Assembly (NCBI RefSeq): GCF_009903625.1
Contig: NZ_CP047569.1
Span: 330,001 to 394,000, forward strand
Direction: 5' to 3'
DNA from: Microbulbifer sp. ALW1
GTDB taxonomy: Bacteria; Pseudomonadota; Gammaproteobacteria; Pseudomonadales; Cellvibrionaceae
Length of the DNA stretch: 64,000 bases
The notes under the pieces were generated by a model. The model was given only the letters and a program-made list of their open reading frames with translations, did no database searches and was not told where the DNA came from. Position 1 is the first letter of the stretch. Each line of letters begins with the position of its first letter. The translations under genes and the position numbers were made by a program. Shown piece after piece: positions 31,927 to 63,329 of the stretch.

Positions 31927-32786
31927 AGTCCGCTCTCCATGGTGACGTTATTTTCATCCTTGCTGCCGGAAGGCGGCATCTTGTCGCCGGTTCCCACAGT
32001 ATTCATTTCTTTTTCAATGACACGCTGGCTCAACGCATCCTGCCCCGCAGAGTCTTTCGAGGCTGCCGCCTGATTAGCGGCCTCTTTACTTGCTGACTTC
32101 GCTGTTTTGCGCGGGCGCCCGCGTTTTAGCGGCCTTACTCGCTGGTTTGCAATCTGCTCGATTTTGTCTTTGAACACATCCCCCCCGAGCACCTGCCCGA
32201 GTTTGATGGTCTCGGCAATATATTCCAACAATCGACGATCAAAGCGATAGCGGAACAGTTTTCGGTAGGCTTCCGCCCTTGCACGCGGAGTTTCTCCCAG
32301 CTCGCGGTAAAGGCGGTGATCGGTGATCACATCGCTGTCTTCGGTGCTCGCATGATGATTGAAACTGGACCATTGGTAGGCACCGAGAGAATCCGCAAGC
32401 CCCAGGTACAGCGGGCGCAGTTCCACATAGCGGTAACAGGTCAGCAGGTAGGCATCGGAATCGATCAGGCTCGACTTGTAGCGTCCAGCCCAGAGTGTTC
32501 CCGAGCGCCGGTAGCGGTGGTTTACAAACTGAACGTAACGCCGGCCGAGGGATTGCATCATTGAGGGAATGCCATCGGGCACCCGGGGTGTCGCAATAAT
32601 CTGCACCATATTTGGCAAAAGCACATAGGCGTGCACATCCACCCGATACTGATCCGCTGCATTGCGCAGGCTGCTCAGGTAAAACCGATAGTCTTCCTCA
32701 TCAAAGAAGCAGGGCAGGTTGTTATGCCCCACCTGGACAATATGTTGAGGAATATCAATCAGATTAAGTCTCGGAAGACGGGGCAT
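31923..32786 (-). CDS. RAYT (REP-associated tyrosine transposase)-like protein with lost HUH motif
   Basis: 287 residues. The first 210 match the Y1/IS200-type RAYT family: MPRLPRLNLIDIPQHIVQVG, NLPCFFDEEDYRFYLSSL, VHAYVLLPN, GRRYVQFVNHRYRRSGTLWA, GRYKSSLIDSDAYLLTCYRY. In active RAYTs the strand after PN reads H-x-H, the metal-binding HUH motif. Here residues 60-62 are Met-Val-Gln, so both histidines are gone while the probable catalytic tyrosine (Tyr113) remains. A Lys/Arg/Ala-rich tail with an AT-hook-like RGRPRK follows (about 228-233). The gene is promoter-proximal in the leftward T6SS operon and overlaps the next gene by four bases. A domesticated DNA-binding role is inferred. Confidence 0.85.
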   Translation of the reverse strand: MPRLPRLNLIDIPQHIVQVGHNNLPCFFDEEDYRFYLSSLRNAADQYRVDVHAYVLLPNMVQIIATPRVPDGIPSMMQSLGRRYVQFVNHRYRRSGTLWAGRYKSSLIDSDAYLLTCYRYVELRPLYLGLADSLGAYQWSSFNHHASTEDSDVITDHRLYRELGETPRARAEAYRKLFRYRFDRRLLEYIAETIKLGQVLGGDVFKDKIEQIANQRVRPLKRGRPRKTAKSASKEAANQAAASKDSAGQDALSQRVIEKEMNTVGTGDKMPPSGSKDENNVTMESGL

Positions 32787-53981: not shown

Positions 53982-54054
53982 TCTGATCTGGGTGCTATTC
54001 GTAGTCTGTGCCACCCCAAGATCGGGGTTCTTTGTATCACGGTGGCGCCGAAGC

Positions 54055-54150
54055 ACCGGGTATAACTTTTTGAAACCGCTGTGAATACATCCCTGTACGC
54101 TGCGTCGGCGACGTCCCTGTCGCCGACGCTTTCAAAAAGTTATACCCGGT
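54055..54150 (-). repeat. Structured repeat copy A (core on minus strand)
   Basis: Perfect 21-bp outer arms (54055-54075, 54130-54150; ACCGGGTATAACTTTTTG...) enclose two hairpins. H1 has GCGTCGGCGAC/GTCGCCGACGC arms. H2 reads GTACAGGGATGTA on the minus strand. The conserved AGCG...CAGGGATG...TTCACAGCGG core is shared with copies B-F. It lies 74 bases upstream of mutL. With copy B and about 75 spacer bases it fills most of the 406-base gap between mutL and amiC. Confidence 0.85.
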
Positions 54151-54225
54151 ACTACGGCTTCAATTTGAACTTTTCTACTTCGTCAGAAACAACAGGACGA
54201 CTCGGCCACGGAACTTCGATGCGAA

Positions 54226-54336
54226 GGCAGGATGCCGGGGATGGATTTTCAAAAGCGTCGCAAACAGGATGTTTGCGCCGCAGCGCCCAGGGATGGGTTC
54301 ACAGCGGTTTTGAAAATCCATACCCGGTAGCCTGCC
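54226..54336 (+). repeat. Structured repeat copy B
   Basis: 29-bp outer arms with four mismatches (54226-54254, 54308-54336) enclose H1 CGCAAACAGGATGTTTGCG and H2 CCCAGGGATGGG, followed by TTCACAGCGG. It lies 52 bases beyond the amiC stop and is oriented opposite to copy A. Confidence 0.85.
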
Positions 54337-54387
54337 GCCACCGCAACAGGAAACAGGCCCCGTAGCCGCAGCAAGGAACCACCAAAC

Positions 54388-55794
54388 TCAACCCGAAGGG
54401 ATCGTCAGCGTCTGTCCCACCCGAATCATCGACGTCTGCATCCCGTTGGCCTTCTTCAGGTCGGTCACAGAAATGTTGTAGCGGGCAGCGATGCCCGACA
54501 GGGTATCACCTCGGGAAATGGTGTGCTTGCGGTCGATGCGATTGCCGTTGGCTGCCAGCCAGCTGCCCGCCGGGGGCCTGGCTTTGAAGTGGGCCACTAT
54601 ACCCTCGCTGAGTTTTTCTGCCATGCGCTTCTGGAATGCCGGGTCACGCAGGCGGCGGGCTTCACCGGGGTTGGTGATAAACCCGGTCTCCACCAGGATC
54701 GAAGGTACATCCGGGTTGCGCAACACCGAGAAGTTGGCCTGTTCGACCTTCTTTTTGTGCAAATGGGTAAAGCTGCCCAGGGAGCTCAGCACACTGCTGC
54801 CGATATCCAGACTGGCACTCATGGTGGCGGTCATGGACAGGTCCAGTAATACGCCCACCAGGGTATCGTCCTTGTCGTTCAGGCTCAGGCTGCCCACACC
54901 ACCAATCAGGTCGGATTCATTTTCGCGCTGGGCCAGGTAGCGCGCTGTCTCACTGGTGGCGCCGCGGGAGGATACCGCGTAGACACCCACGCCGCGGGCC
55001 TCTTTGCGGGTGAAGGCATCGGCGTGAATGGAAACGAACAGGTCCGCGCGCAGTTCGCGCCCCTTCTTCACCCGGTTGCGCAGCGGAATATAGTAATCCC
55101 CAGTGCGCACCAGTTTGGCGCTGAAGCCGGGCTCGCGATCGAGCGCCTTATGCAGCTGGCGAGAAATGGCCAGCACTACATCTTTTTCGCGCACACCACC
55201 AGGACCAAGGGCTCCGGGGTCTTCGCCACCGTGACCGGCATCGATGGCGACCACAATATCGCGCTGGCCGCGGACCTGAACCTGTTCGATGGTTTTCTCT
55301 TCCACCTTGTCGCGGTCGTGCAGGTCGATGACCAGGCGATCCGGCAGCGCCTGGTGGCGGCGCAAGTCGAAGCTGCGCGGGGTTACCGCCTGCTTCAGGT
55401 CCAGTACCAGGCGCAGGTCGCGCTTGTCCTTGGTCGCGTAGCGAATACCGGCAATGGGAGTATCCTGAATGGGCAGGTTGTCTACCGAGGCCTTGAGTTT
55501 AGCGCCGCTCACATCGATAACCACCCGGTGCGGGTTTTCCAGGGTAAACAGCTTGTGTTCCGCGGGGCCGTCGAGGTCCAGCACCAGGCGGGTGTGATCC
55601 GGGGCGCGCCACAGGCGCACACCTTCCACGTCCGCGGCGAATGTCGGCTGCACACTCAAAACGGCCAGGAAAACCAATAGCCATGTTTTGCACAGACTCC
55701 AAAGGCCTTCGACGCGATGCGCCCGCGAGGTGTGATGTTTACGATACACCCGCTTTCCAGGCGGTGTCTCAAGCGGCAATCCTGCTGCGATCAT
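54388..55794 (-). CDS. amiC: N-acetylmuramoyl-L-alanine amidase (AmiC-type) with LysM
   Basis: Periplasmic zinc amidase that splits peptidoglycan between daughter cells. An N-terminal export signal (about residues 34-53, TWLLVFLAVLSVQPTFA) is followed by an AMIN domain (VRLWRAPDHTRLVLDLDGPA), an Amidase_3 domain (VVAIDAGHGGEDPGALGPGG with the zinc His, SIHADAF, and the catalytic-Glu segment SILVETGFITNPGEA) and a C-terminal LysM (about 424-467; TISRGDTLSGIAARYNI). The annotated start gives an unusually long n-region and no better ATG exists. The tsaE-amiC-mutL order is conserved in the group. Confidence 0.94.
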   Translation of the reverse strand: MIAAGLPLETPPGKRVYRKHHTSRAHRVEGLWSLCKTWLLVFLAVLSVQPTFAADVEGVRLWRAPDHTRLVLDLDGPAEHKLFTLENPHRVVIDVSGAKLKASVDNLPIQDTPIAGIRYATKDKRDLRLVLDLKQAVTPRSFDLRRHQALPDRLVIDLHDRDKVEEKTIEQVQVRGQRDIVVAIDAGHGGEDPGALGPGGVREKDVVLAISRQLHKALDREPGFSAKLVRTGDYYIPLRNRVKKGRELRADLFVSIHADAFTRKEARGVGVYAVSSRGATSETARYLAQRENESDLIGGVGSLSLNDKDDTLVGVLLDLSMTATMSASLDIGSSVLSSLGSFTHLHKKKVEQANFSVLRNPDVPSILVETGFITNPGEARRLRDPAFQKRMAEKLSEGIVAHFKARPPAGSWLAANGNRIDRKHTISRGDTLSGIAARYNISVTDLKKANGMQTSMIRVGQTLTIPSG

Positions 55795-55839
55795 TCTTAT
55801 TGCCCTGTCGATCGGTTTTTATTTTGTGCCCGGCAACGG

Positions 55840-56328
55840 CTACTGCAATTGTGCCAATACCTGGTTGCCCGCCTCACTCAGCGCCTCAAGCACCAGCCTG
55901 CGGCCCTCGCCTTCCAGGCTCAGGGACAGCGTCAGATCCGGCTCCGGCAAGACGCCTGTGCCGCGTTCAGACCACTCCACCAGGCTGAGACTCCCTGGGC
56001 CGAAGTAATCACGCACCCCCATGTACTCCAGTTCCTCTGCATCCCCAAGGCGGTACAGGTCGAAATGGTAAACCCGCTGCTCGGTGAACTCGTAAGGTTC
56101 CACCAGAGTATACGTCGGACTTTTTACCGCGCCACAGTGGCCAAAAGCCCGCAATACGCCCCGGCTAAAGGTGGTTTTACCCGCGCCCAGCTGGCCGCCG
56201 AGAAAAATCACCAGCCCCTCGCTGAGACCGGAATCCTTGCAGGCTTTCCCCAGTTGCTCACCGGCGGCCACAGTGGCGGCCTCGTCGGCGAGAAACTGTG
56301 TGACCTGCGCGGGCTGCATAGCCATCAA
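55840..56328 (-). CDS. tsaE: tRNA threonylcarbamoyladenosine biosynthesis ATPase TsaE
   Basis: Small P-loop ATPase needed with TsaB/D/C for t6A37 of ANN-reading tRNAs. The 162 residues contain FLGGQLGAGKTTFSRGVLRA (Walker A), SPTYTLVEPYEF and YHFDLYRLGDAEELEYMGV, then LVEWSERG. The start is TTG 56328, with in-frame ATGs at 56325 and 56319 as equal candidates. It lies 22 bases after nnrD and 45 before amiC. Confidence 0.95.
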   Translation of the reverse strand: MMAMQPAQVTQFLADEAATVAAGEQLGKACKDSGLSEGLVIFLGGQLGAGKTTFSRGVLRAFGHCGAVKSPTYTLVEPYEFTEQRVYHFDLYRLGDAEELEYMGVRDYFGPGSLSLVEWSERGTGVLPEPDLTLSLSLEGEGRRLVLEALSEAGNQVLAQLQ

Positions 56329-56350
56329 CTCAAATCCTTACTTAGTGGAA

Positions 56351-57862
56351 TTAATCGACCAGACGGCGAATATGCGGGAGCAGGTCCGTCGCCAGCAGAC
56401 CGCGCTGGCCATCTGCGGCCGCCAGATTACCCGCCTCGCCATGCAACCAGACACCGAGGCGCGCCGCTGCTGGCAATGCCATACCCTGACCGATCAATGC
56501 GGCAATAATTCCCGTCAGCAGGTCACCCATACCCCCGGAGGCCATGCCGGGGTTACCGGTATTGACCAGGTCCACCCCATCCTCGTGGGCGATCAGGGTA
56601 CCTGCGCCCTTAAGTATCACCACGCCGCTGAATTTCTGCTGAATCGCTCTGGCCGCGGCCACCCGATCCGCCATCACTTCAGCGGTGGTCATGCCCAACA
56701 AGCGCGCGGCTTCACCCACGTGGGGCGTCAGCACCCAGTCGTCGCGCTGGACACCGGCAAGCACCCGGCCGCCGGCGAGAATATTCAATGCATCCGCGTC
56801 CACCACCAGTGCCGCCGGTGCACGGCCGGCACGCGCCAGCAGTTGTTCACTCCAGGGAGATTGGCCAAGGCCGGGGCCCACAGCGATAACACCTGGCGCT
56901 TCCAGCAGCGGCTCCAGCTCCTGGCCAGAGACCACCGGATGTGCCATCACCGCCGGGCAGCGGGTCAATGCCGCCGCCACATGCTCCGGACGACTGGCAA
57001 TGGAAATCAGGCCCGCACCGGTACGCGCAGCCGCCTCGGCCGCCATCAGTGCCGCACCACCAAAGCCGTGATCCCCCCCCACCACCATCACGTGGCCGAA
57101 CTGGTTTTTGTAGCTGTCAGCCGCACGGGGTGCCAACCGCTCCAGGCTCCCGCCCTCGTAGCGTAACAGGGAGGCGGGCACCGTTGCGTAGACTTCTGGT
57201 GCGGCGCCCAGGTCCTCAAAGCGCACCTCCCCGCTGAGCGCGGGACCGCGCCCCAGATACAGCCCGCTCTTGCAGCCGATAAAGGTAACGGTGAGATCCG
57301 CCTGCACCGCATCGCTTGCGACGCCACTGTCTGCATTCAGGCCCGACGGAATGTCCACCGCCAGCACCGGCGCGGGCAATTGGTTGATATAGGCCACTGT
57401 GGCATCCATGGGCGCGCGCAGCGCACCGCTGAATCCGGTACCCAGCAGCGCGTCCACCAGTACGGTATTTGCCTCGATTGCGGGCATTGCAGTGAGATCC
57501 GACACCAGAGTCGCACCCTCACGCTCGGCAAAGCGATAGGCTTCCAGCGCTTCCCCTTTCAATTTATCGGCCGGTACAGCGGTATAGACCACCACCGGCA
57601 ACTGGCGCTGGGCCGCGAGACCGGCGATCACATAGCCATCGCCACCGTTGTTGCCGCCGCCACAAAATACCTGCAGCCCGCTCACCTCCGGCCAGCGTCC
57701 GCGCAAATGATCAAAGGCCGCGCGACCGGCACGCTTCATCAGCGACAGCGCCGGTATCTGCTGCTGGCTGATGACCTGCTGATCCAGTTCGCGCACGGCG
57801 GCCGCACTGTAAAGTTTCTGCGCGAGAGCGCCATCCGGGGTCACATGGTTTTGGCTATCCAT
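56351..57862 (-). CDS. nnrD: Bifunctional NAD(P)H-hydrate epimerase/dehydratase
   Basis: Repairs damaged NAD(P)H hydrates. The N-terminal YjeF_N half (about 20-215; FCGGGNNGGDGYVIAGLAAQ, VDALLGTGFSGALR, VLAVDIPSGLNADSG) is the epimerase. The C-terminal ribokinase-like half (about 225-500; VMVVGGDHGFGGAALMAAEA, VVDADALN, VLTPHVGEAARLLG, GNPGMASGGMGDLLTGIIAA) is the ADP-dependent dehydratase. ATG 57862 gives 503 residues; the frame continues to 57991 but would overlap the divergent queG start. The 88-base gap to queG must carry both promoters. Confidence 0.95.
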   Translation of the reverse strand: MDSQNHVTPDGALAQKLYSAAAVRELDQQVISQQQIPALSLMKRAGRAAFDHLRGRWPEVSGLQVFCGGGNNGGDGYVIAGLAAQRQLPVVVYTAVPADKLKGEALEAYRFAEREGATLVSDLTAMPAIEANTVLVDALLGTGFSGALRAPMDATVAYINQLPAPVLAVDIPSGLNADSGVASDAVQADLTVTFIGCKSGLYLGRGPALSGEVRFEDLGAAPEVYATVPASLLRYEGGSLERLAPRAADSYKNQFGHVMVVGGDHGFGGAALMAAEAAARTGAGLISIASRPEHVAAALTRCPAVMAHPVVSGQELEPLLEAPGVIAVGPGLGQSPWSEQLLARAGRAPAALVVDADALNILAGGRVLAGVQRDDWVLTPHVGEAARLLGMTTAEVMADRVAAARAIQQKFSGVVILKGAGTLIAHEDGVDLVNTGNPGMASGGMGDLLTGIIAALIGQGMALPAAARLGVWLHGEAGNLAAADGQRGLLATDLLPHIRRLVD

Positions 57863-57950
57863 AAATCCGTACTGCTTCCGACTGTGGTCAATTTTTAAAC
57901 TGTGGCAAAATAACGGCAAAGTATACCGCTTCACACCCCCGACTGCCCCT

Positions 57951-59081
57951 ATGACCAGCACTCCCGAGCCCTCTTCCGATACCGCCGCCATGCAGGAGCT
58001 GGCCGCGCAGATTCGACTCTGGGGGCGGGAGCTCGGCTTTCAGCAGGTGGGCATTACCGACTGCCAGCTGCAACAGCATGGCGAGCGCCTGCAGGCCTGG
58101 CTGGATGCGGGCTACAACGGGGATATGGAGTGGATGGGTGCCCATGGCGAAAAGCGCTGGCGCCCGGAACTGCTCGAAGAGGGTACCTTGCGGGTCATCA
58201 GTGTGCGCCTGGATTACCTACCCCCGGACACACAACCGGTGCAGGTGCTGAAAGACCCAAGTAAGGCCTACGTCTCCCGCTATGCCAACGGCCGCGACTA
58301 TCACAAGCTGATCCGCAAACGCCTGGCGCAGCTGGCACAGCAGATTGACCGCTATTGCGAGGAGCGCGGATTGGCGGCCAGCGGTCGCGCCTTCACCGAC
58401 AGTGCCCCGGTCATGGAGCGCGCCCTGGCGGAAAAAGCCGGGCTCGGCTGGATTGGCAAGAATTGCATGGTGATCAATAGCGAGGCAGGCAGCTGGTTTT
58501 TTCTTGGCGAAATTTACACCAACCTGCCGCTACCGGTGGACGTGAGTGAGCAGCCGAATCAGTGCGGTGAGTGCACTGCCTGCCTGAAGGTGTGCCCCAC
58601 GGATGCGTTTGTGGATGCCTACACCCTCGACGCGCGCCGCTGCATTTCCTACCTGACCATCGAGAACAAGGGACCCATCCCCCTGGAATTCCGCGAGCCC
58701 ATGGGCAACCGGGTCTTTGGCTGCGACGATTGTCAGATCATCTGCCCCTGGAACAAATTTGCCAAACCCACTGCGGAGAACGACTTCCACCCGCGACATG
58801 GGCTGGACAGTGGCGAGCTGGTGAATCTGTTTCAGTGGAGCGAGCCGGAATTTTTGAAAAATACCGAGGGCTCTGCGATTCGACGGATCGGGTTTGAGCG
58901 CTGGCAGCGGAACCTTGCCGTCGCTCTAGGAAACTCAGATCCCACCCCAGAAATTACCGCGGCACTGGAGAAGAAGCTCACTTCTGCGACACCTATGGTA
59001 AAAGAGCATATCGAGTGGGCATTGGAGCGGTTGCGCAGTGGACGGCGGCGGAAACGGAAAATCAAACGAGTTTACGAGTGA
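57951..59081 (+). CDS. queG: Epoxyqueuosine reductase
   Basis: Cobalamin- and iron-sulfur-dependent enzyme for the last step of queuosine synthesis in tRNA. The 376 residues show the N-terminal substrate domain (ISVRLDYLPPDT, YVSRYANGRDYHKLIRKRL, TDSAPVMERALAEKAGLGWI) and two 4Fe-4S clusters: CGECTACLKVCPTDAF and, later, CDDCQIICPWN. A basic tail (GRRRKRKIKR) ends the protein. It is divergent from nnrD, as in most gammaproteobacteria. Confidence 0.96.
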   Translation: MTSTPEPSSDTAAMQELAAQIRLWGRELGFQQVGITDCQLQQHGERLQAWLDAGYNGDMEWMGAHGEKRWRPELLEEGTLRVISVRLDYLPPDTQPVQVLKDPSKAYVSRYANGRDYHKLIRKRLAQLAQQIDRYCEERGLAASGRAFTDSAPVMERALAEKAGLGWIGKNCMVINSEAGSWFFLGEIYTNLPLPVDVSEQPNQCGECTACLKVCPTDAFVDAYTLDARRCISYLTIENKGPIPLEFREPMGNRVFGCDDCQIICPWNKFAKPTAENDFHPRHGLDSGELVNLFQWSEPEFLKNTEGSAIRRIGFERWQRNLAVALGNSDPTPEITAALEKKLTSATPMVKEHIEWALERLRSGRRRKRKIKRVYE

Positions 59082-59135
59082 ACATTGGCGCTTGTGGTAT
59101 TTGTGGCTTGGAAGCTGGATTAGTGGCGGTGAAGC

Positions 59136-59231
59136 GCCGGGTATCTGTTTCCAAAACCGCTGTGAATACATCCCTGTACGCTGCGTCGGCGACGTCCCTG
59201 TCACCGACGCTTTTGGAAACAGATCCCCGTC
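59136..59231 (-). repeat. Structured repeat copy C (core on minus strand)
   Basis: Outer arms GCCGGGTATCTGTTTCC... (59136-59156) and its near complement (59211-59231) enclose H1 (GCGTCGGYGAC type) and H2 GTACAGGGATGTA read on the minus strand, then TTCACAGCGG. It lies 55 bases after the queG stop. Copies C and D account for most of the 408-base gap between queG and orn. Confidence 0.85.
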
Positions 59232-59329
59232 ACTCCACCTTTCATTCTTATTTTCGCACTTCGTAAGCGCTTGTGACTGACCAGCTCTACCCACCTCTTC
59301 ACTTACAGAGCTAGTTGCGCTAATGCAAA

Positions 59330-59440
59330 GGCCGGGTGCCGGGTAAGGGTTTTCAGGAGCGTCGCAAACAGGATGTTTGCGACGCAGCGCCCAGGGATGG
59401 GTTCACAGCGGTCCTGAAAACCCTTACCCGGTGCGTGGCC
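59330..59440 (+). repeat. Structured repeat copy D
   Basis: 29-bp arms (59330-59358, 59412-59440), perfect over the inner 19 bp, enclose H1 CGTCGCAAACAGGATGTTTG and H2 CCCAGGGATGGG, then TTCACAGCGG. It lies 50 bases beyond the orn stop and is inverted relative to copy C, the same arrangement as A/B. Confidence 0.88.
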
Positions 59441-59489
59441 GCCACCTCACCAGCTTCCAAACCACCCATCCAATGAAGTGCGGCAGGTA

Positions 59490-60032
59490 TCAACTCATGC
59501 GAAAAAAGTGCTCACGATAATGTTTCAGTTCGTTAATGGAATCGTGAATATCATCCAACGCCAGATGCGATGAAGTCTTCTTCACTCCCTCCAGCACATC
59601 GGGCCGCCAGCGCCGCGCCAGCTCTTTCACCGAGCTCACGTCCAGGTTGCGATAGTGGAAGTACTGCTCCAGCAGCGGCATATATTTCACCAGGAACCGG
59701 CGATCCTGGCCGATGGAGTTACCGCACATGGGCGAGGCGCCCTCCGGTACCCACTGACCGAGAAACTCAATGGTCTCCCGCTCCGCCTCGCGCTCGCTGA
59801 TGTGAGACTCACGCACCCGCGCCACCAGCCCGGAGCCACCGTGCTGCTCCGTATTCCAGTCATCCATCGCATTCAGCAGCGCATCGCTCTGATGCACTGC
59901 CATGACCGGCCCCTCCGCCAGCACATTCAGGCGCGAATCCGTCACCACCGTCGCAATCTCAATGATGCGCTCCTTCTCCGGATCCAGGCCTGTCATTTCC
60001 AGATCGATCCAGATCAGATTATTCTGGTCCAC
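59490..60032 (-). CDS. orn: Oligoribonuclease
   Basis: DEDDh 3'-5' exonuclease that clears 2-5-nt RNAs, including pGpG from cyclic-di-GMP turnover. GTG 60032, five bases after AAGGAGTTTACT, gives 180 residues: [20 protein letters not shown] (Asp, Glu), [20 protein letters not shown] and the final [20 protein letters not shown] (His, Asp). A longer frame to 60113 overlaps the divergent rsgA leader and is not supported. Divergence from rsgA is the usual gammaproteobacterial arrangement. Confidence 0.96.
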
Positions 60033-60156
60033 AGTAAACTCCTTACTAGCCCCGGCGGCGGGCAGATAACGGGTGAAATGGCGGGAAAAGCGCAAGGTAC
60101 CGCAATCCCCCATCGATGCAAGTTATAATCCGGCGCTTTCCCCAAACCGAGCCTCC

Positions 60157-61188
60157 ATGAGCAAACGCAAACTCAACCGCCGCCAGCAGTGGCGCATCGC
60201 CAAAATCCAGCAGGAGCGGGAGGCGCGCGCGCGCAAAAAGGAGCAGAGCCTGGAGCAGGCCGGGGAAGAAGGTGACCTCGGGCAGGAGCAAACCGGCCTC
60301 ATCATCGCCAACTACGGCACCCAGGTACTGGTAGAAAGTGAGAACGACAGCGAGCTGCGACAGCGCTGCCATGTACGCTCCAATATCGACACCCTGGTCA
60401 CCGGCGACAAAGTGGCCTGGCGCCCGTCCATCGGTGAATCCACCGGTGGCCTCGGGGTCGTCGGCGCACGCCTGCCGCGCCACTCGGAACTGCAGCGCCC
60501 GGACCGCTATGGCGATATGAAAACCGTCGCCGCGAATATCGACCGCATCCTGATCGTCATTGCCCCCTATCCGGAGCCCTTCGCCAACGCCATCGACCGC
60601 TACCTGGTCGCCGCGGAAACCACCGGTATTCAGCCACTGCTGCTACTGAACAAAATCGACCTGATCGACGACAGCAACCGCGATCACCTCAGTGATTTGC
60701 TGATGCCCTACCCCGGGCTCGGCTACGACATACTGAAACTGTCTACCCGCACCGGCGAGGGCCTTGAAGAATTACTCGCACTGCTGGCCCAGGGCACCAG
60801 TGTGTTCGTCGGCCAATCCGGCGTCGGCAAATCCTCGCTGATCAACGGCCTGCTGCCCGGCACCGATGCCCGCACCGGTGCCCTCTCCGAAGCCACCGGC
60901 AAAGGCACCCATACCACCACTGCCGCGGAACTGTTTCACCTGCCCAGTGGCGGCGATCTGATAGACTCCCCGGGCATTCGCGAATTCGGCCTTTGGCACA
61001 TGAGCGAGCAGGAACTGCTGGAAGGCTTTGTGGAATTCCGCCCGTTTATCGGCCACTGCCGCTTCCGCGACTGTCGCCACCAGGGCGAACCCGGTTGCGC
61101 CATTCAGAGCGCACTGCTGCGCGGGGACATCAGCGAAAGACGCATGGACAGCTACCTGCACCTGCGCAACAGCCTGGAAACTGAATAA
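60157..61188 (+). CDS. rsgA: Ribosome small-subunit-dependent GTPase RsgA
   Basis: Circularly permuted GTPase acting late in 30S maturation. From ATG 60157 (MSKRKLNRRQQWRIAKIQQE) there are 343 residues: a basic N-terminus, an OB fold (GLIIANYGTQVLVE), the permuted G domain in order G4 (LLLNKIDL), G1 (GQSGVGKSSLINGLLPG) and G3 (DSPGIREFGLW), then a zinc finger (CRFRDCRHQGEPGC). The initial 28 codons of the longest frame are leader, not protein. Confidence 0.96.
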   Translation: MSKRKLNRRQQWRIAKIQQEREARARKKEQSLEQAGEEGDLGQEQTGLIIANYGTQVLVESENDSELRQRCHVRSNIDTLVTGDKVAWRPSIGESTGGLGVVGARLPRHSELQRPDRYGDMKTVAANIDRILIVIAPYPEPFANAIDRYLVAAETTGIQPLLLLNKIDLIDDSNRDHLSDLLMPYPGLGYDILKLSTRTGEGLEELLALLAQGTSVFVGQSGVGKSSLINGLLPGTDARTGALSEATGKGTHTTTAAELFHLPSGGDLIDSPGIREFGLWHMSEQELLEGFVEFRPFIGHCRFRDCRHQGEPGCAIQSALLRGDISERRMDSYLHLRNSLETE

Positions 61189-61224
61189 GCCCGGAGCAGG
61201 GCAACACCACACTAGGAAAAACAC

Positions 61225-62031
61225 GTGAGCGAAGTACCCCTGATCCTGGAGCCAGAACAACTGGCGCCACTGCTGGAACACGAAGAAATCAAAGTCGTCG
61301 ACCTCAGCGCCCCCGCCAACTACCTGGCGGGACACATCCCCGGCGCCATTGGCCTGCCCTTCCAGGCTCTGCTGGCTGGCACCCCACCGGCCCCGGGCAA
61401 ACTGCCCTCCATCGAACGCCTCACCCAAGTCTTCCGCGCCATCGGCCTCACCCCCGACACCCACATCGTCGCCTGCGACGACGAAGGCGGCGGCTGGGCC
61501 GGGCGCTTACTGTGGACACTGGAAGTCATCGGCCACAAAAAATACAGCTACCTCAACGGCGGCATGCTCGCCTGGAAAGCGGCCGGCCTGCCACTCTCCA
61601 CCGAAGAAGTCAGCGTCACCCCCAGTGAAATCGACGTTGCCATCGCCGCCGACGCCCCCATGCTCGACGCGGATCAGATTCAACAGCGGCTGACGCAAAA
61701 CGACCTGCAAATCTGGGACGCTCGCTCCCCCGCCGAGCACAGCGGAGAACGGGTACTGGCAATGAAAGCCGGCCACATCCCTGGCGCGATCAACTGTGAA
61801 TGGACCCAGCTCATGGACCCACAGCACGACCTGCGCATTCGCGAAGATGCAAAAGAATTCCTCGCCGCACTGGGTATCGACGGCAACAAGGAAATCGCCA
61901 CCCACTGCCAGAGCCACCACCGCTCGGCCTTTACCTGGCTGGTGGGGAAGTCACTGGGGTTCCCGATCAAGGCATACCCCGGTTCCTGGAGTGAGTGGGG
62001 CAATTTGCCGGACACTCCGGTAGAGAATTGA
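61225..62031 (+). CDS. Rhodanese-type sulfurtransferase (two-domain)
   Basis: 268 residues forming two rhodanese domains (about 5-130 and 145-265). The C-terminal domain carries the active-site loop HCQSHHRSAFT with the sulfur-accepting Cys. The N-terminal domain has Asp in the equivalent position (VACDDEGGGWAGRL) and is probably structural. Thiosulfate or 3-mercaptopyruvate is the usual donor for such proteins. GTG 61225 follows AGGAAAA. It sits between rsgA and psd, a common neighbourhood. Confidence 0.88.
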   Translation: MSEVPLILEPEQLAPLLEHEEIKVVDLSAPANYLAGHIPGAIGLPFQALLAGTPPAPGKLPSIERLTQVFRAIGLTPDTHIVACDDEGGGWAGRLLWTLEVIGHKKYSYLNGGMLAWKAAGLPLSTEEVSVTPSEIDVAIAADAPMLDADQIQQRLTQNDLQIWDARSPAEHSGERVLAMKAGHIPGAINCEWTQLMDPQHDLRIREDAKEFLAALGIDGNKEIATHCQSHHRSAFTWLVGKSLGFPIKAYPGSWSEWGNLPDTPVEN

Positions 62032-62076
62032 TTCTGAGCTTTAAAATATCTAACGAAGCTCAAGACGAGATGCGAA

Positions 62077-62200
62077 GGTCAGGTGCCGGGTGCGAGTTTT
62101 CAGGAGCGTCGGCGACAGGAAGTCGCCGCCGCAGCGCCCAGGGATGGGTTGAACGGGGGCGCCTAGCCCGGTCCTGAAAACTCGCACCCGGCACCTGACC
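62077..62200 (+). repeat. Structured repeat copy E
   Basis: Perfect 29-bp outer arms (62077-62105, 62172-62200; GGTCAGGTGCCGGGTGCG...) enclose H1 GGCGACAGGAAGTCGCC and H2 CCCAGGGATGGG. The usual TTCACAGCGG is here changed and extended to a GGGGGCGCCTAGCCC stretch. It lies 46 bases after the sulfurtransferase stop and fills much of the 240-base gap before psd. Confidence 0.88.
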
Positions 62201-62271
62201 GCCAAACCGACATAACCAGATCCTAAGAGGGATCGGCACACATCCACAAACAACGGGACCAATAAAACTCA

Positions 62272-63123
62272 ATGAACCCGAAACTGTTTATTTTCCTGCA
62301 GTACATCACCCCGCAACATCTGCTCTCCCGAGCTGCAGGCTGGCTCGCAGAAACCCGTATCGGCGGCATTAAAAATCCATTTACCAAGTGGTTCGTGGAA
62401 AAATACAAAGTCGACATGAGCGAAGCACTGGAAGAAGACTACACTGCCTACACCTGCTTCAACGACTTCTTCACCCGCGCATTGAAAGAAGGCGCCCGCC
62501 CTATCGTCGAAGGTGAAAACACCATCGCCGGCTGCGCCGATGGCGCCATTAGCCAACTGGGTGAAATTCACAACGGCAGAATCTTCCAGGCCAAAGGCCA
62601 GGACTACAGCCTGCTGGAACTCGTCGGCGGCGACCCCGAAGTAGCCGCGCAGTTTACCGGCGGCAACTTCGCCACCATTTACCTTTCGCCGAAAGATTAC
62701 CACCGCGTACACATGCCGCTGGACGGCGTACTGCAGCGCATGGTCTACGTCCCCGGCGAACTCTTCTCGGTCAACACCACCACCGCCGAAAATGTCCCGC
62801 GCCTGTTCGCCCGCAATGAACGCCTGGTGTGCATCTTCGATACCGCCGCCGGCCCCATGGCCATGATCCTCGTCGGCGCCATGATTGTTGCCGCCATTGA
62901 AACCGTGTGGGCCGGACAGGTAGCGCCGATCAAACGCCAGATCCGCACCACCCGCTACGATGAACAGAAACCCATTGCTCTGAAAAAAGGTGACGAAATG
63001 GGCCGTTTCAAACTCGGCTCTACCGTGGTACTGCTGTTTGGTGCCGACAAGGTGAAGTGGCTGGAAGCGTTGTCTGCGGAAACGCCTGTGAGAATGGGCG
63101 AGCACTTTGGGGATCTGGTTTAA
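62272..63123 (+). CDS. psd: Phosphatidylserine decarboxylase proenzyme
   Basis: Makes phosphatidylethanolamine at the inner membrane. The 283 residues show LFIFLQYITPQHLLSRAAGW, FNDFFTRALKEGARPI, YHRVHMPLDGVLQRMVYVPG and ELFSVN, with the self-cleavage site LGST near residue 246 (FKLGSTVVLLFG), where the Ser becomes the pyruvoyl group. The length and motifs are standard. Confidence 0.97.
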   Translation: MNPKLFIFLQYITPQHLLSRAAGWLAETRIGGIKNPFTKWFVEKYKVDMSEALEEDYTAYTCFNDFFTRALKEGARPIVEGENTIAGCADGAISQLGEIHNGRIFQAKGQDYSLLELVGGDPEVAAQFTGGNFATIYLSPKDYHRVHMPLDGVLQRMVYVPGELFSVNTTTAENVPRLFARNERLVCIFDTAAGPMAMILVGAMIVAAIETVWAGQVAPIKRQIRTTRYDEQKPIALKKGDEMGRFKLGSTVVLLFGADKVKWLEALSAETPVRMGEHFGDLV

Positions 63124-63171
63124 CGCCAAAAAATAATTCCAGATTTTTCGGAGCACTTAACTCGACGCGAA

Positions 63172-63285
63172 GGTGTCGATACCGGGTACTTGCTTGCGAG
63201 ACATTCCGCGAGAGGGACCTCGCGGAAGAGCCCCCAGGGATGGGTTCACGGCGTGTCTCGCAAGCAAGTACCCGGTAGCGGCACC
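63172..63285 (+). repeat. Structured repeat copy F
   Basis: 32-bp outer arms with two mismatches (63172-63203, 63254-63285; ...ACCGGGTACTTGCTTGCG) enclose H1 TTCCGCGAG-AGGGAC-CTCGCGGAA and H2 CCCAGGGATGGG, then TTCACGGCG. H1 has an entirely different stem from copies A-E but keeps the AGGGAC loop. It lies 49 bases after the psd stop and 45 before the next start. Confidence 0.88.
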
Positions 63286-63329
63286 GCCCCAAGACTCCTT
63301 CGAGCGACCACGATACCCGTAAATTTTTC

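Follow-up and report, generated by a model that had tools for sequence, protein, structure and literature searches.

A dispersed intergenic repeat of Gammaproteobacteria whose folded strand is predicted to present two CsrA/RsmA-type hairpins

The window analyzed here is a 64-kb stretch of the Microbulbifer sp. ALW1 chromosome (positions 330001–394000 of a 4,682,287 bp single-contig genome) that carries six copies of an intergenic palindrome. Together with copies elsewhere, they belong to one dispersed repeat family of Gammaproteobacteria that is real, widespread, and apparently unnamed. The GGA-bearing strand of the repeat folds into an outer clamp stem and two short hairpins, H1 and H2, whose A(N)GGA(N) loops are a near-constant distance apart, like a two-site ligand of the global regulator CsrA/RsmA. 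From sequence comparison, we give a probability of about 0.5 to the overall reading that the folded strand presents two CsrA/RsmA-type hairpins, for which binding is predicted. Dispersed intergenic palindromes are a known kind of repeat; what is new here is a pair of putative CsrA/RsmA-type loops that stay near-fixed amid changing stems.

Collecting all genomic copies and building a covariance model, as a preliminary description of the window had suggested, yielded 122 elements in the 4.68 Mb genome. The pattern CCCAGGGATGGGTTCAC (at most two mismatches) occurs at 63 places in this genome and TACAGGGATGTATTCAC at 49, with 0 for reversed-pattern controls. A covariance model trained on 41 copies scored 150 candidates there; 144 rows had E ≤ 0.01, and 122 elements were left after 21 mirror-strand rows and one short row were dropped. 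Base-by-base analysis covered 121 of them (the own copies). The large set bears out the folded three-arm element first proposed for the window. The unit is ~117–130 bp long and intergenic (2 of 121 copies overlap a gene call made by a simple codon model), with a near-perfect outer stem of up to ~30 bp around H1 (~10–11 bp), the linker AGCC or AGCG, H2, and a conserved tail, TTCAC[A/G]GC, that forms a bulge or a strand of the junction in the predicted fold. Its flanks in the own genome, GCGAAGG and CGCCAC, are the same on copies in Microbulbifer contigs. Subfamilies are distinguished by H1 and by H2 (CCC/GGG or TAC/GTA). A recurrent variant carries the extra-hairpin pattern GGGGGCGCCTAGCCC in the tail (9 of 121 own copies, including the window copy at 62075–62203). 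At two other loci (L160, ~2481–2627; L254, ~1302–1449), H1 is enlarged at the loop by a ~30-nt GC-rich hairpin. Copies are unevenly distributed: the first half of the chromosome record holds 91 of 122, and a chi-square test over tenths gives p = 4e-7.

The stems of the repeat change in pairs, as had been proposed from the six window copies and as is now borne out in larger sets of 41 aligned and 121 own copies. In the 41-copy alignment, 31 of 38 pairs show change on both sides; cells with change on both sides number 353, compared with 118 in shuffles, and the covariation score is 0.579, compared with 0.196. For four of five covariation measures, none of 500 shuffles came up to the observed value; for the fifth, the count of further pair types (72 versus 70.4), 181 of 500 did. 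Among the 121 copies, Watson-Crick pairing at stem positions 5–14 is 0.993 (1201 of 1210 cells, the others being 6 G·U, 1 A·C, and 2 of other kinds), in an arm register picked by best pairing of 14 nt, which favors pairing at inner positions. Shuffling of the right arms lowers pairing to 0.42 (maximum 0.48), and shuffling within H1 classes lowers it to 0.72 (maximum 0.79). The 41-copy alignment, which was not fitted to the structure, agrees: the inner 13 outer-stem pairs (columns 20–32/88–100) are Watson-Crick in 529 of 533 cells, with 2 G·U and 2 unpaired. All four Watson-Crick pairs are common at positions 10–14. At positions 12–14 all 363 of 363 cells are Watson-Crick, and position 13 alone has 28 AT, 35 TA, 24 GC, and 34 CG. 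The 16-nt arms are nearly private to each copy, 115 of 121 being distinct. H1 stems behave likewise in a broad set of elements gathered with a sequence pattern (642 Watson-Crick, 2 G·U, 1 A·C, and 13 other among 658 cells). Strict pairing has exceptions: G·U fills 91 of 242 cells at positions 21–22, and 11 of 121 copies keep a G·A mismatch at position 15, as 6 do at position 16.

Such imperfections favor G·U over A·C, and the GGA-bearing strand is therefore the one that folds, either as RNA or as DNA. With arm scoring that charged G·U and A·C equally before counting, the G·U:A·C ratio on the GGA strand is 99:3 in 104 own copies, 48:1 in 55 genus relatives (four own-genome copies having been removed from the genus set), 17:5 in 21 elements of other families, and 85:13 in 103 broad-set elements. 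The last figure is conditional on the presence of a stem, because 36 of 139 broad-set cores showed no outer stem under an ungapped test and were left out of the pair counts; the same test rejected one genus element and seven other-family elements. The excess among own copies owes much to an inherited tandem at positions 21–22, and without these positions it stands at 21:1 in sense and 25:3 in antisense copies. By organism group, 13 favor G·U, 2 favor A·C, and 17 tie; six of the ties come from groups in which no element was scored, and mixed bins make up two of the groups.

While the stems vary, the two hairpin loops, of A(N)GGA(N) form, are near-invariant. The H1 loop holds GGA in 100 of 103 broad-set elements (89 with strict A(N)GGA), and the 7-nt stems that carry it come in 60 different sequences; H1 is absent from the pattern with which the broad set was gathered. 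The same loop has GGA in 101 of 104 own copies, 59 of 59 elements of the genus set, and 20 of 21 from other families. For H2, 100 one-mismatch places outside the own genome were tallied among the matches listed (up to ~10 per genome): 45 mismatches fall where ANGGAN leaves the base free (two positions) and 0 at its four fixed positions. The distance from GGA to GGA, start to start, is 24 nt in 92 and 23 nt in 21 of the 113 own copies in which both loops could be scored (H1 was unscored in the remaining 8 of 121), and 22–24 nt in 92 of 101 broad-set elements.

According to a published account, the consensus of systematic evolution of ligands by exponential enrichment (SELEX) for CsrA is RUACARGGAUGU, RsmE recognizes an ANGGAN loop, and CsrA/RsmA bridges two sites 10–63 nt apart, best above 18 nt (PMC7652899). 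The exact 12-mer (12/12) is present in 38 of 121 own copies, where simple arithmetic with equal base frequencies predicts ~2 chance occurrences per genome of this size. The repeat thus shows both sequence features expected of such a two-site ligand, hairpin loops of A(N)GGA(N) form and sites 10–63 nt apart, and we name CsrA/RsmA because motif and geometry match. That the loops mean CsrA/RsmA-type sites is putative, and about an even bet. If so, the GGA strand would act as RNA, with a CsrA/RsmA dimer binding both loops, and transcribed copies would provide CsrA sites close to gene 3′ ends, acting locally or by titration. More tentatively, at least 100 such two-site modules per genome might form a distributed sponge or enroll 3′ ends in Csr control, while template switching makes the stems private.

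Several observations weigh against the CsrA/RsmA reading. The main difficulty for a read-through RNA is that the strand bias is independent of host-gene direction. Relative to both neighbors, with genes called by the same simple codon model, own copies are 51 sense, 37 antisense, 25 convergent, 4 divergent, and 4 not classed; the broad set (n = 100) has 27 sense, 26 antisense, 17 convergent, and 13 divergent copies, plus 12 edge, 3 far, and 2 overlapping ones. Loops are intact in 34 of 37 antisense and 49 of 51 sense own copies. Because antisense copies keep both their loops and the G·U bias, read-through RNA alone is insufficient, and the 70 nt upstream of copies showed no conserved promoter. 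A motif scan of the fetched stretches found no csrA, a negative that says little (the whole genome was not searched), and a match to RsmZ is sub-threshold (25.9 bits versus a cut-off of 44). We rejected this RsmZ candidate: besides scoring below threshold, its sequence looks like a gene end followed by a terminator. The account of stem change given below, by copying between arms, has a difficulty of its own, since mismatches such as the position-15 G·A persist and copying would have to be incomplete.

Stems were also compared at orthologous sites. A Psd search of 40 genus genomes retrieved 30 loci. Upstream of psd, the element is present in 12 of the 16 closest loci (L212–L227, own included) and a short stub in the other four (L216, L218, L219, and L221); one of 14 further psd loci (L238) has a copy. 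Stems at this site vary between species yet remain paired. The arms in L226 are each one pair shorter than those in L224, L222 and L223 have a common outer stem with different cores, and the L225 copy is without H1. At the amiC-mutL site, stubs or a fused remnant were found in L246, L247, L248, L256, and L257, and nothing in many loci. Neither clean insertion boundaries nor target duplications were seen; at orthologous sites, the element has been retained for long and decays to stubs. Near psd, L215, L218, L222, and L226 also carry a second hairpin repeat (TTCCCGC ... GCGGGAATGAC) that is unrelated to the first.

Template-switch copying between arms is suggested by their near-exact complementarity, four-letter variability, scarce G·U, and matched change of arm length. 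Quasipalindrome template-switch mutation has been proposed for RNA hairpins and makes and repairs stems in a single event (PMC8794818), which is its likeness to the case described here; it is a mechanism and not a family, and accounts for the stems but not for the loops. Our results suggest that such copying acts alongside selection: template switching would copy one arm onto the other, and selection would remove structures that do not fold. The preliminary description had taken compensatory change as pointing to selection on the fold; the change itself is confirmed, but covariation alone does not prove selection, since template switching fits it too. Target-site duplication was considered as a source of the variable block and rejected by reasoning, the block being inverted rather than direct.

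A serious rival, which we hold possible if doubtful, is a non-autonomous mobile element moving as a folded single DNA strand, like REPs or IS200/IS605 ends; its loops would be read by an enzyme, and their likeness to CsrA sites would be a coincidence. It is serious because neither the placing of the copies nor their strand bias nor the integrity of the loops follows host-gene direction. Also in its favor are a copy number that within one genus varies between 0 and at least 63, the presence of inverted pairs within 420 bp (13 divergent and 5 convergent), as in BIMEs, and the strand specificity of TnpA-REP on folded single-stranded DNA (PMC8266576). On the other hand, a mobile hairpin does not predict which positions of ANGGAN are free and which fixed, and the retention and decay at orthologous sites speak against it, as does the failure to see clean boundaries or target duplications. 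A linked mobilizing enzyme, for which the preliminary description had proposed a search, was sought as Y1 transposase only, and the numbers of Y1_Tnp domains and elements are uncorrelated in 37 genomes (Spearman −0.07, p 0.68, with at most 63 elements counted per genome); three genomes without Y1_Tnp carry 52, 49, and 20 elements.

If template switching alone kept the quasipalindrome arms complementary, the fold could be a functionless mutational by-product. Scarce G·U, the four pair types at positions 10–14, and matched arm-length change would all follow from this published mechanism, but invariant loops, a conserved tail, and the one-strand excess of G·U over A·C are not predicted, and 11 of 121 copies retain the G·A mismatch beside the variable block; we consider it improbable. 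Least plausible of all is an ordinary 3′-end hairpin, serving to end transcription or to shield the transcript. In its favor, 75 of the 86 ends of single copies that face a stop codon lie 20–80 nt from it. Such roles, however, need neither fixed loops nor a tail, and as an intrinsic terminator the repeat was rejected: no T-run lies directly 3′, since not one of 121 copies is followed by TTTT within 12 nt; on the opposite strand, 4 of 121 are.

The core of the repeat recurs in many other gammaproteobacterial genera. The covariance model finds it in 39 of 58 genomes, counting the own one, and in 5 of 22 genera. A strict 20-mer pattern occurs in 15 of 369 genomes of a class sample and 22 of 398 of a phylum sample, own included in both; these tallies are lower bounds, as the pattern misses genomes found by the covariance model (G006 and G054). 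Two of the 22 phylum-sample genomes are outside the class, each with a single 1-mismatch place, and the highest count is 128 places in one genome (G308). Of at least 118 named stretches, we assigned the 80 listed by their names, taking 79 to be Gammaproteobacteria, including Xanthomonas, Stenotrophomonas, Halomonas, Marinobacter, Saccharospirillum, and Shewanella, and one to be a Bacillus record. The latter, the sole record outside Gammaproteobacteria among those matches, is one element (L331) on a contig titled Bacillus subtilis SK7B5, possibly a contamination. A plasmid collection gave no match with element 2 as query, nor did a phage collection with element 6. Carriage by phages or plasmids was rejected: besides these negatives, 18 viral contigs match the short core pattern, and the 17 examined in context are without the element.

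The preliminary description recognized no named family, and this holds in the libraries searched. Rfam (4227 families, including TwoAYGGAY and PrrB_RsmZ) gave 0 window matches at gathering score and, on 18 loci of other genera, only 6S and cobalamin, located elsewhere in the loci than the element. At E ≤ 1, seven loci with copies gave 11 matches, all below cut-off; those overlapping copies were mir-7563 (41 of 80 bits) and Ysr224 (27 of 70). No published description of the repeat was found in the accessible portions of the open-licence literature, and it may be described elsewhere; papers containing the core 12-mers are unrelated, judging by title and abstract.

Among known systems, CsrB/C, the RsmX/Y/Z decoys, and mRNA leaders share A(N)GGA(N) loops on short hairpins and two sites at bridging distance. 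The repeat differs in being dispersed in both orientations, in its long outer stem, and in matching no Rfam Csr/Rsm family at threshold across the scanned stretches. The name of TwoAYGGAY suggests two AYGGAY loops. This candidate RNA motif (Weinberg 2010) is listed for gamma-Proteobacteria and Clostridiales in PMC2864571, but was not among the 11 matches at E ≤ 1 in the seven loci with copies. REPs and BIMEs resemble the repeat as intergenic palindromes near 3′ ends, often in inverted pairs and possibly active as single strands. They are, however, 20–50 nt palindromes after a GTAG-like tetranucleotide, whereas the repeat is ~117–130 bp long with two inner hairpins; we rejected this identity, as GTAG/GGAG stands at the 5′ foot in only 1 of 121 copies and there is no link to Y1 transposase (TnpA-REP). 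ERIC is of similar length and intergenic palindromic character. Unlike ERIC and repeats similar to miniature inverted-repeat transposable elements, the family described here has private stems with fixed loops; blastn of element 2 against 5,426 E. coli genomes (E ≤ 1e-5) gave no match, ERIC itself not being aligned.

If the loops bind CsrA/RsmA, a global post-transcriptional regulator would owe some of its sites to the spread of a repeat family, besides those that evolved at individual genes, and copy number could set CsrA titration. With its many copies and orthologous sites, the family is also a dense natural record of paired stem change, useful for telling the effects of template-switch mutation apart from those of selection on RNA structure, and a warning that strong covariation is by itself no proof of a selected RNA.

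All six window copies lie within ~11 bases of the positions first noted, as judged from sequence reading, the list of inverted arms, and covariance-model matches (Table 1). Five different outer stems had been claimed; in fact all six differ. The tail that had been called shared or related is TTCACAGCGG in four copies, but is TTCACGGCGT at 63171 and is interrupted by a hairpin at 62075. The inverted arms are 84–97% complementary. Elsewhere in the window, a Y1_Tnp domain (26.9 bits, cut-off 23) lies in a 293-aa frame at 32421–32747 (−), with no element in the surrounding 2.1 kb.

Table 1. Copies of the repeat in the window and their parts (window coordinates; bits are covariance-model scores)
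Feature	Position	Strand	Remarks
Element 1, H2 TAC/GTA type, divergent partner of element 2	54044..54160	−	119.3 bits
Element 1 arms	54047–54078 / 54127–54158		91% complementary
H2 of element 1, exact RUACARGGAUGU (CsrA SELEX consensus)	54087..54098	−	one of only two window matches
Element 2, H2 CCC/GGG type, antisense to amiC and mutL	54224..54339	+	118.6 bits; arms 88% complementary
H1 of element 2, loop AGGAT, GGA 54267–54269	54255..54281	+	sequence reading and fold
H2 of element 2, loop AGGGAT, GGA 54291–54293	54286..54297	+	sequence reading and fold
Element 3, TAC/GTA type, divergent partner of element 4	59125..59241	−	113.4 bits; arms 84% complementary
H2 of element 3, exact RUACARGGAUGU	59168..59179	−	consensus match
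Element 4, CCC/GGG type	59328..59443	+	121 bits; arms 84% complementary
Element 5, extra hairpin GGGGGCGCCTAGCCC inserted in tail	62075..62203	+	92.5 bits; arms 97% complementary
Element 6, tail TTCACGGCGT, H1 CTCGCGG-type with loop AGGGAC	63171..63287	+	116.3 bits; arms 88% complementary

The first and third copies, which hold the sole two exact consensus matches of the window, are on the minus strand, and each is divergent with its plus-strand neighbor (54044/54224 and 59125/59328). In element 2, the second GGA starts 24 nt after the first (start to start).

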